From Candidatus Eiseniibacteriota bacterium (GTDB taxonomy: Bacteria; JAFGKV01), in NCBI GenBank assembly GCA_025453925.1, contig JALOPK010000010.1:1-24850 (forward strand): DNA of 24,850 bases, in the 5' to 3' direction. Shown here piece by piece: positions 2,780 through 7,720 of the stretch. The translations under genes and the position numbers were made by a program. How positions within the stretch are numbered: position 1 is the first letter of the stretch; each line of letters begins with the position of its first letter. Under the pieces are notes generated by a model. It was given only the letters and a program-made list of their open reading frames with translations. It was not told the origin of the DNA and searched no databases.

Positions 2780-3796
2780 ATGCGCGTTTTCGCGGCCATG
2801 GTGCTTCTGGCGCTGGCGGCCGTTGGCGGCCCGGCGTTCGGAGCGGACAGAATCGTCCACTACGAGCACTTCACCTCAGCCGGCTGACCCACCTGCCCTT
2901 CGATCGCAGGTGTGGTCGATCAGTGGGAGGATGCATACAGCTCCAATGAGATCACCTGGGTCGGGTACACCAATAGCGACCCGTTCTACTCCAGTCGGAT
3001 GAGCTACTACGGCATCACGGCGGTCCCGACCATTTGCGGCAATGGCACCTCCGATGTCTGGCCATGCAATCAAAGCACGATGAATGCAGACTACGCCGCA
3101 CACAACGAGCTCCCCTCGCCTCTCTCCGTCACGCTCATCGAGAACGGGATCGCCGATTTCACCGCGCGCATCGTTGCCGAGGAGGCGGTGACCGGCGCCA
3201 GGTTCGTGATGGTGGCTGTGGAGGACGATACGGTCCCTGGCTACGGCGGAAGCCAGACCCATCTGCCGTTCCATGCGCGGGCATTCATGACTGCTGTCCA
3301 GGGGGATGACTTTTCATTGGCCGCGGGCGCCAGCGTTGACATCCGCCGGACCTTCACCGTGAGCCCGGGCTGGTACTATCAGAAGATGGGAGTCGCGTGC
3401 TGGGTCCAGATCGCGGGTGGTTCCGACCCCAGCCCGTCGCCCAGCATCCCAGTCCTCCATCAGGTGCTCCAGTCGGCGTTCCGGCCGGCGTGGTTCCAGC
3501 CCGCACAGAGCACCTTCAACGGTACCGAGCTGCAGCTCACGTGGACACCGATGTGGGAAGCGGCGCAGTTTTGGATATATGGGGAACGGAATGAGGCGTA
3601 CTTCTCGCCGGGTCTTGCCCCCGGTTATGCCCATCGGCTTGCAACTCTGCCCGCAGGCTCGACGCTGTGGTCAACGACCACCGGACTCAGCAATCCCACG
3701 GACAACTGGACGTACCTGATCGTCGCCGTTGATTCCGACGGTCTGGAGATCACCCGCTCCAACAGGCTGGGTGAGTTCGAGTTCGAAACACCGTAG
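2780..3796 (+). CDS. candidate selenoprotein: secreted thioredoxin-fold (Omp28-like) protein with UxxC, in-frame TGA
   Basis: ATG at 2780 follows GGGAGGG by 5 nt and begins a clear signal peptide (residues 1-22, ending AFGA). Mature residues read DRIVHYEHFTSAG, then TGA at codon 36, then PTCPSIAGVVDQW. The thioredoxin-like family shows FTxxxCxxC at this place, so the stop replaces the first redox Cys and gives Sec36-P-T-Cys39. The frame stays open for 302 more codons to TAG at 3794 (338 residues in all). Beyond the thioredoxin fold (cis-Pro region AVPTICGNG), residues 110-215 match the Omp28-like tail (LPFHARAF, VSPGW, VACWVQ). Residues about 235-338 form an FN3-like C-terminal domain shared with the next gene. 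A downstream GTG start at 2912 would lack both a ribosome site and the redox motif. Alternatives are a pseudogene or a base error. The role is probably a periplasmic or surface thiol/disulfide function. Confidence 0.72.
2885..2923 (+). promoter_or_regulatory. candidate bacterial SECIS element after UGA codon 36
   Basis: UGA is at 2885-2887. A stem of 2902-2907 (GATCGC) pairs with 2915-2921 (GUCGAUC, with one bulged U at 2916), closing a 7-nt loop AGGUGUG at 2908-2914. The loop starts 20 nt after the UGA and has G at its second position. Both values lie within the published bacterial SECIS model as I recall it. The GCAGGU at the stem-loop junction is also present in the E. coli fdhF SECIS. A competing stem, CACCTGC (2890-2896) with GCAGGTG (2906-2912), is GC-rich and would place the loop only 9 nt from UGA. 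Confidence 0.6.
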
Positions 3797-3845: not shown

Positions 3846-3871
3846 CGACGCCTAATGGGAAGGAGAATGGA

Positions 3872-5293
3872 ATGAGGAAACGCCTGATGCCATGGGCGAG
3901 CGTGCTTGCCATGGCCCCCCTGGCGTACTCGGCCACCTTCTGGGTCGAGCCCGACGGCAGCGGTGACTACCCGACCATCCAGGCCGCGATCAACGCCGCT
4001 TCGCCCAGCGATGAGATCGTTCTTGGCGACGGCGTGTTCACCGGGGATGGCAACAGGAACATTGACTTCGTAGGCAAAGCCGTCACCGTTCGTTCCCAGA
4101 GCGGAGACCCCGCCACATGCGTGATCGATGTGCAGGGGAACTTCGACTACATTTCCGACCAGGGGTTCTCCTTCCACTCGGGCGAGGGGCCGGGCTCGGT
4201 GGTCAGGGATCTGACCATTACGAATGCGGTCGCCGATGGCGCCTGACCATCGTGCGATGGCGGCGGGGTCCGCTGCCAGGGTGCTTCTCCTTCTCTCATC
4301 AACGTCATATTCCTCAACAACTTCGCCGTCGTCGGCGGGGGTGCCGCGTTCCTCGAGAGTTTGCCCACCATCTCGGGCTGCGTGTTCAAAGGCAATCGTT
4401 CGCTGACCGACGGCGGCGGGCTCTATCTCTCCGTCATCGATACCGCGACGGTCGGTCGGTCGCGCTTGCCCGGCGAGGATCCCAGCCTCCGGGCACCCGA
4501 CGGGATCCGCGCGATCACCGTCACCGCCTGCGTGTTCGACAGCAACTATGCCTACGGTTCGGCCGGGTATGGCGGCGGCCTGTGCATCCTCGGCCCGAAT
4601 GCCGTGACCGTGCGCGGCTGCACCTTCGGCCGGAACAGCGCAGCCAACGGCGGGGGCGTCGGCCTTCCCGATGGCATCGTGTACATGGAGAACACCATCA
4701 TTGCCTTCAATACCCGCGGCGGCGCTGTCGGCATGAACGCCGGCGGCAGCGCGACGCTTCAGTACAGCGATCTCTCCGGCAACACCGACGGAGACTGGAC
4801 GGGGTCCATCGCGGACCAGAACGGCATCAACGGGAACATCTCCCTGGATCCACTGCTCGCAGGGGCTGCGTCCGGCGACTACCGGCTGACGTCGGGCTCG
4901 CCCTGCATCGACACCGGTGATCCGGCCGCTACACCCGATCCTGACGGCAGCCGGGCTGACATGGGCGCGCGGTTCTTCGACCAGTCATTCGACCTGACGG
5001 CAACGGTAACCGGGGGCGTGATGAATCTGGCGTGGACCAGTTCACCCCGGGCTGCCGCCTACTGGATCTACGGGGCGGTCAACGAGCCCTTCTTTGCGCC
5101 GGGACTCGGGCCGGGATACGCGCACCGACTCGCCGTGGTGGGTTCGGGCACACTCACATGGTCCAGTAGCGCCGGCGTCGGCGATCCCGCGACCAACTGG
5201 TGGTATCTCGTGGTGGCCGCCGGCCAGAACGGCCTTCCGATTCTGCCCTCGCCCCGCGTGGGCGAGTACGACAGGGCCTGGGACACCCCGTAA
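3872..5293 (+). CDS. candidate selenoprotein: secreted right-handed beta-helix protein with in-frame TGA (UPSC)
   Basis: ATG at 3872 follows AAGGAG by 6 nt. Residues 1-20 are a signal peptide ending AYSA. FWVEPDGSGDYPTIQAAI opens a pectate-lyase-like/DUF1565 beta-helix. Helical turns then run to about residue 330 with GGG and N-x-A/S repeats (GGGAAFL, GCVFKGN, DGGGLYL, GGGLCIL). The late motif GDYRLTSGSPCIDTGDP followed by DGSRADMGA is typical of this family. TGA at codon 125 (4244-4246) interrupts the reading ADGA-TGA-PSCDGGGVRC, and the same frame stays open for 348 codons to TAA at 5291. If decoded, the product is 473 residues with Sec125-P-S-Cys128. The C-terminal domain (about 370-473: WIYGAVNEPFFAPGL, PGYAHRLA) is homologous to that of the preceding gene. 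Without recoding only a 124-residue stub is made. Alternatives are a recent nonsense mutation or sequence error. Confidence 0.65.
4244..4278 (+). promoter_or_regulatory. candidate bacterial SECIS element after UGA codon 125
   Basis: UGA is at 4244-4246. UGGCGGCGG (4258-4266) pairs over nine positions (one G-U) with CCGCUGCCA (4270-4278), closing the triloop GGU at 4267-4269. The loop starts 20 nt after the UGA, the same distance as in the preceding gene, and begins with G. Stem length, loop size and spacing all fall within the bacterial SECIS model as I recall it. Confidence 0.62.
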
Positions 5294-6850: not shown

Positions 6851-7720
6851 ATGATTTCCGAGATCGCCGCAAAAACCATCCTGTCGGCGGTGCCGCAGCC
6901 TGACCCGTGGTTCGGCCTCCGCTACTCCATGAACCTGTACCGCGGCTGCCAGCATCAGTGCATCTACTGCGATTCACGGAGCACGTGCTACGGCATCGAG
7001 AACTTCAGCGACATTCTGGTGAAGGCCAATGCCATCGAGCTTCTGCGCCGTGAACTTCCACGGAGACGCGTCAAGGGCACCATCGGTACCGGCTCCATGC
7101 ACGATCCCTACATGCCGCTGGAAGCGGAACGACGGCTTACCCGTCGCGCGCTGGAAGCCATTGCGGAGCATCGGTTTCCCGTGCACGTCATCACCAAGAG
7201 CGATTTGGTCGTGCGCGACGCCGACGTGCTCTCGGGCATCAGCGCGGTCTATGCGGCGGTCAGCTTCACCATCACCACCGCAGACGACTCCCTGGCCGCC
7301 AGACTTGAGCCAGGGGCTCCTTCCGTTTCCCGTCGGCTCCGCGGCATGGAGGCATTGTCCGGACGCGGCGTCTTGGTCGGCGTGGTGCTCATGCCCATCT
7401 TGCCCTTCCTGGAAGACACCGAGGGCAATATCCGGGCCATCGTGACGCGAGCGCATCAGGCCGGTGCGGCATACATCGTCCCCGCCTTTGGCATGACCCT
7501 GCGTGACCGGCAGCGCGACTACTACTACGCGCAGCTCGACTGTCTGTTTCCAGGGCTGCGGAAGCGCTACGAGCAACGTTTCGGGGACCGATACTCCTGT
7601 GGGGTTCCCAACGCCCACCGATTGGAGGAGTGCTTTCGTAGCGTGTGTGCCGACAGAGGACTCGCCATCCGGATGCCAGTGTACCCGGCACCCTCGGCAG
7701 AACAACTTTCTCTGTTCTGA
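6851..7720 (+). CDS. SplB-like radical SAM protein (COG1533-type)
   Basis: This 289-residue protein carries the radical SAM cluster motif in RGCQHQCIYC (C33, C37, C40), which binds a [4Fe-4S] cluster for S-adenosylmethionine cleavage. The flanks PDPWFGLRYSMNLYRGC and the later TGSMHDPYMPLE and HVITKS match the COG1533/spore-photoproduct-lyase-like group. Several such members lack a known substrate. No strong ribosome site precedes the ATG at 6851, and the gene starts 61 bp after the lipoprotein, so it may depend on cotranscription. TGA stop at 7718. It is complete for the family. A DNA-repair or RNA/protein modification role is possible but not shown. Confidence 0.88.
   Translation: MISEIAAKTILSAVPQPDPWFGLRYSMNLYRGCQHQCIYCDSRSTCYGIENFSDILVKANAIELLRRELPRRRVKGTIGTGSMHDPYMPLEAERRLTRRALEAIAEHRFPVHVITKSDLVVRDADVLSGISAVYAAVSFTITTADDSLAARLEPGAPSVSRRLRGMEALSGRGVLVGVVLMPILPFLEDTEGNIRAIVTRAHQAGAAYIVPAFGMTLRDRQRDYYYAQLDCLFPGLRKRYEQRFGDRYSCGVPNAHRLEECFRSVCADRGLAIRMPVYPAPSAEQLSLF

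Follow-up and report, generated by a model that had tools for sequence, protein, structure and literature searches.

Can an in-frame TGA in a gene for an apparently exported beta-helix protein stand for selenocysteine (Sec, U)? The question is raised by an open reading frame in the window analysed here, a 24,850-nt stretch of contig JALOPK010000010.1 from a Candidatus Eiseniibacteriota assembly (GCA_025453925.1). Whether the codon is a stop, a reassigned sense codon or a site of Sec insertion depends on its conservation, on the residues that accompany it, and on the signals and enzymes available for decoding it.

The gene, its product and the distribution of its TGA codon

The original prediction was of a single TGA at codon 125, directly followed by Pro-Ser-Cys, with 348 further codons completing the fold. 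Translation bears this out: the 474 codons of the frame include just one internal TGA, and the 348 residues between it and the TAA stop, counting P-S-C, hold the rest of the beta-helix and an Fn3-like domain (Table 1). The Pfam Beta_helix profile (PF13229) matches residues 166-322 with 28.5 bits, above its gathering cut-off of 25.9. An AlphaFold2 model, with block-mean pLDDT of 86-98 over residues 21-190, places U125 in a loop between strands 115-117 and 133-135. Foldseek matches were to beta-helix lyases and esterases, at low TM-scores, and to Fn3-like chains. A PDB sequence search gave one uninformative match, a solved complex in which the matching chain is a long, putatively transmembrane protein, and no plasmid match was found.

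Table 1. Features of the beta-helix locus and its upstream neighbour, in window coordinates
Feature	Position	Strand	Basis
Omp28/thioredoxin-like gene, own in-frame TGA at 2885-2887 (SAG-U-PTC-P)	2780..3796	+	Profile match, aligned relatives
Shine-Dalgarno-like AAGGAG, 6 nt 5' of ATG	3860..3865	+	Read from sequence
CDS, putative beta-helix selenoprotein, 473 residues, ATG to TAA	3872..5293	+	Translation, Pfam, AlphaFold2, conserved family
Signal-peptide-like N-terminus MRKRLMPWASVLAMAPLAYSA, suggesting export	3872..3934	+	Sequence pattern alone
Right-handed beta-helix, about residues 22-305	3935..4786	+	Pfam PF13229 and AlphaFold2 strand pattern
In-frame TGA taken as selenocysteine, U125	4244..4246	+	Conservation in paralogue, same-genus genome, other phyla
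Partner cysteine C128 of U-P-S-C	4253..4255	+	Unchanged in every U member
Bacterial SECIS-type hairpin, 9-bp stem and GGU loop, within GGGVRC codons	4258..4278	+	Fold and bacterial model (PMC13188914)
C-terminal Fn3-like domain, residues 373-473	4988..5290	+	Genome matches to residues 373-473, Fn3-like PDB matches

The Fn3-like domain recurs in about 35 copies in the same genome and is also found in genomes G001 and G002; the Omp28-like gene upstream bears a copy as well (3503-3781). It may be a module specific to this lineage, for anchoring or secretion.

Is the TGA peculiar to this gene? In the same genome the paralogue G000:C296, and in a same-genus genome the gene G001:C148, have U-P-W-C-S-GGGVRC, their TGA aligning with that of the window gene; TGA codons at this column are also present in genes of Effluviviacota, Krumholzibacteriota, Zixiibacteriota and Neomarinimicrobiota. 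Such recurrence at one column, in a paralogue, a same-genus genome and other phyla, leaves chance unworkable as an explanation. Aligned in this way, the UxxC beta-helix feature is kept across five bacterial phyla. Relatives with UxxC at this turn, which the prediction had said to look for, thus exist, and the further stops that would have counted against it are absent from the related genomes: each gene has one TGA and no other.

A wider scan covered 84,980 species with the pattern TG[A/C/T]-CCN-NNN-TGY-NNN-GGN-GGN-GGN-RTN-NNN-TGY, that is, TG[A/C/T]-Pro-x-Cys-x-GGG-[V/I]-x-Cys, leaving the first codon free to be TGA, TGC or TGT. It returned 90 stretches, nine of them within a beta-helix frame. 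The first codon was TGA in all nine, compared with 24 of the other 81 (Fisher p = 5e-5), which were mostly chance, out-of-frame or low-complexity matches; those at G001:C144, G002:C96 and similar places were dropped as lying outside a beta-helix context. The nine come from Fermentibacteria, Effluviviaceae, Krumholzibacteriota, Zixiibacteriota, Neomarinimicrobiota and four metagenome-assembled genomes (MAGs), the last four matching, by agreement of SelB places and scores, genomes in the phylum of genome G071, which is also home to the Effluviviaceae record. When the 20 genomes of that phylum were searched with the family profile, the six best matches (197-221 bits) had exactly one TGA each, and the next best (119 bits) had none.

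The hairpin and the decoding machinery

The hairpin described in the prediction, a 9-bp stem closed by a GGU triloop, was found exactly where it had been placed: the loop occupies 4267-4269 and starts 20 nt past the UGA. The predicted fold of the 47-nt hairpin stretch has an energy of -21.6 kcal/mol. The Escherichia coli fdhF SECIS has a GGU in its apical loop close after the UGA; the loop is thus common to both, while the stem and the host protein differ, the stem here being set by the GGGVRC codons. On scoring, as had been proposed, the hairpin fits the published bacterial SECIS model, which has a loop of 3-9 nt with a G within its first two positions, a stem of 4-16 bp, a spacing of 16-37 nt and a minimum free energy of -7.5 or lower (PMC13188914), and so do those of all 12 distinct family members. 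Spacing from the UGA to the start of the loop is 20 nt in 11 of these and 21 nt in the remaining one (L137). The 18 nt of the stem region, GGCGGCGGGGTCCGCTGC, are the same in 10 of the 12, in proteins with just 28-47% local identity to the window protein. Codon choice points the same way: in 11 of 12 members the third Gly is encoded by GGG, a codon found there at 17 of 55 comparable turns elsewhere in these genes (p = 1.4e-4).

The energy of the hairpin is unexceptional, and the case is therefore built on conservation. It is no more stable than synonymous recodings with the same peptide and codon usage (z = -0.65), nor does it stand out from dinucleotide shuffles (z = -1.34); the same holds against synonymous recodings for most members. 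When the GGGVRC peptide is recoded with these codon preferences, 17-67% of the recodings yield a hairpin like this one. Across 12 sequences, 91.7% of cells are paired, and changes on both sides occur at two pairs, mostly contributed by L110; this suggests modest covariation support, formal covariation being thin because the hairpin sequence is so conserved. A scan of the window with Rfam at gathering cut-offs returned nothing.

Could the host decode such a codon? The prediction would have been undermined had Sec machinery been missing, and it is present in the source genome (82% complete): a tRNA-Sec whose anticodon is TCA (78.8 bits), a full-length SelB (333.9 bits) and SelA (523.6 bits). Ten carrier genomes were considered, those of the nine scan matches plus G071. 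A clear tRNA-Sec (61-77 bits) is present in nine; the Neomarinimicrobiota carrier has a borderline one (48.1 against a cut-off of 47) along with a strong SelB. SelB likewise exceeds its cut-off in nine of the ten, and a tRNA-Sec is present in the remaining carrier. For the phylum of G071 the SelB count is five among six carriers and six among 14 non-carriers (p = 0.16), which is only a trend, consistent with the proposed role and not decisive. The same-genus genome G001 (94% complete) has SelB and no SelA over the cut-off (20 bits at best), a gap that may lie in the assembly or reflect the use of another enzyme. One MAG, G104 (L157), carries two tRNA-Sec genes, each above 72 bits.

The proposed selenocysteine-cysteine pair and its possible roles

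The residue three positions after U is Cys in all 27 aligned U rows, many of which are overlapping loci of the same genes. Homologues with a non-Cys residue at the U column, which the prediction had named as refuting, do exist: in non-Sec relatives that column is gapped or filled by Tyr, Trp, Gln, Gly or a similar residue. But they almost never have the downstream Cys either, and the pair is therefore missing as a unit.

A homologue in G079 (L219, G079:C23:222900-225000), 37.5% identical across the first 177 residues, has the two residues exchanged: U-P-S-C has become C-G-S-U, its codons at the U and Cys columns being TGC and TGA (L219:713), respectively, in a loop four residues longer. A candidate 7-bp hairpin lies in its GGG[VI]xC codons, its loop again starting 20 nt past the UGA, in a form that differs from the minimum-energy fold; SelB is present in this genome. 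Given this exchange and the joint absence from non-Sec relatives, Sec and Cys seem to function together, as a single pair on a surface loop.

Most selenoprotein families also have a plain Cys form. Here, scanning 84,980 species for the exact pattern gave no plain C-P-x-C form. A long beta-helix protein in G110 (L199, G110:C65) has C-W-P-N-C-T-GGGMYC at the same turn, offset by one residue, and this CWPNC is a possible Cys counterpart of U-P-x-C.

How might such a pair be made, and what might it do? The most probable answer, to which a probability of about 0.88 can be attached, is an exported beta-helix selenoprotein, most likely with a redox function. UGA codon 125 would be read as selenocysteine by SelB and Sec-tRNA, directed by the hairpin whose GGU loop lies 20 nt downstream and which is built into the codons of a conserved Gly-Gly-Gly-Val-Arg-Cys turn. 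The protein would then be exported, as the T9SS sorting domains in several relatives also suggest, and would display Sec125 and Cys128 on an exposed loop between two coils of the helix, where, outside the cytoplasm, they would most likely form a redox-active selenol/thiol (selenenylsulfide) couple.

Another possibility, unlikely but deserving attention, is that the protein is indeed a selenoprotein whose Sec/Cys pair, instead of redox cycling, binds metal ions or soft electrophiles. An extracellular scaffold with two soft ligands close together would be suited to this, and 11 of 17 aligned family members match the model of the copper-maturation protein NosD at E < 0.001; but NosD is itself a beta-helix protein, so this may be scaffold similarity only, and at the model's own cut-off of 300 (TIGR04247) the paralogue falls far below, with 21.2 bits, and the window protein is unmatched. 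The loop conserves no His/Met/Cys cluster beyond U, C128 and the C134 of GGGVRC, which is common in non-Sec relatives too, and the occurrence of both U-x-x-C and C-x-x-U orders is typical of redox pairs.

It is also conceivable, at much lower probability, that the UGA serves mainly as a selenium-dependent switch, giving a short product without selenium and the full-length protein with it. The TGA does cut the product at one quarter of its length, as any Sec UGA in part must, but the residues up to 124 form only an unfinished helix, and a pure switch would not need the partner Cys that every member retains.

Reading of the UGA as Trp, Cys or Gly, through a suppressor tRNA or a reassigned code, is very improbable. 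Trp does stand at the aligned position in a few non-Sec relatives, for example S-S-W-P-Y in L048, but L048 has no partner Cys and every U member does; the carriers own Sec machinery; and TGA is the ordinary stop of eight of the 14 window genes checked, and is therefore not reassigned.

There remains the question of whether anything downstream of the TGA is made at all. The dN/dS ratio past the TGA is 0.13 (L080/L130) and 0.21 (the paralogue and its G001 counterpart), similar to the values before it in the same two pairs (0.18 and 0.21). These ratios indicate that the downstream part is under purifying selection, and that it is therefore translated. That the TGA is a true stop or an assembly error in a truncated or decaying gene is hardly credible: automatic gene callers would halt there and restart downstream, but independent assemblies from five phyla have the same TGA column, one TGA each and zero other stops, and selection past the TGA speaks against decay. 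Pseudogene, assembly error and code reassignment were thus rejected on the cross-phylum TGA, purifying selection and the TGA stops in the window.

In the family tree, the window gene clusters with the Zixiibacteriota gene and non-Sec relatives, and the other nine U genes make up a second group, forcing at least two changes of state. On this topology, the Sec feature would be either old and lost in between, or gained twice.

Relation to known selenoproteins and wider meaning

No published selenoprotein family on a beta-helix scaffold was found, in keeping with the original prediction. None of the 119 prokaryotic families in Table 1 of a 2026 review is a beta-helix entry (PMC13188914). The selenoprotein models of NCBIfam (June 2026) gave no match at E < 0.001 in 17 aligned members, and full-text literature searches combining selenoprotein and beta-helix returned nothing relevant, with incomplete coverage, so that absence there is not proof.

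A thioredoxin-like fold is shared by most characterized selenoproteins (PMC13188914). With the bacterial U-x-x-C selenoproteins of that and related folds the present family has in common an in-frame UGA, a SECIS-type hairpin shortly downstream, SelA, SelB and tRNA-Sec, and the U-x-x-C motif itself (PMC13188914); it differs in its right-handed beta-helix, in the position of the motif on an inter-coil loop, and in its probable export. With right-handed beta-helix repeat proteins (PF13229; pectate-lyase-like, NosD-like and POMP repeats) it has in common the fold and the GG[GA]-[IV]-x-C turns, according to Pfam and AlphaFold2/Foldseek, whereas ordinary PF13229 members, including the closest relatives, lack both U-P-x-C and the in-frame TGA.

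The Omp28-like gene, 76 nt upstream, offers a further comparison. Its relatives have TGC or TGT at the TGA column, or TGA in G000:C438 and G027:C26, and it is probably a second selenoprotein, distant from the Omp28-related selenoprotein NF045500 (GOS_C), whose model it matches with 24.5 bits against a cut-off of 200. NF045500 resembles the beta-helix protein in its U-x-x-C and probable export; unlike it, NF045500 is thioredoxin-like, of an unrelated fold, and has Cys homologues with TGC/TGT at the U column. The Omp28-like neighbour could be a redox partner of the beta-helix protein. In the ORF lists of eight family loci, no conserved gene neighbour was evident, the Omp28-like gene included. 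Two genes downstream of the beta-helix gene lies a radical-SAM-like gene (6851-7720; GCQHQCIYCDSRS).

It is likely that these genes constitute a new selenoprotein family of uncultured FCB-type bacteria: a Sec-Cys pair set on an extracellular repeat scaffold, found as U-x-x-C or as C-x-x-U and in two separate branches of the beta-helix tree, and possibly forming a redox or metal-handling site on the outer surface. Such genes would be easily overlooked, because gene callers cut at UGA and some detection pipelines demand Cys homologues; deep-Sep, for one, requires them (PMC12013277), and pipelines of this kind would tend to pass over a family with almost no Cys form. If the present reading is correct, it shows that selenoprotein genes of this type are missed, and the SECIS hidden in the GGGVRC turn provides a searchable signature for finding more of them. 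It would also extend selenium biochemistry to extracellular repeat proteins, in an exported beta-helix family present in five phyla.
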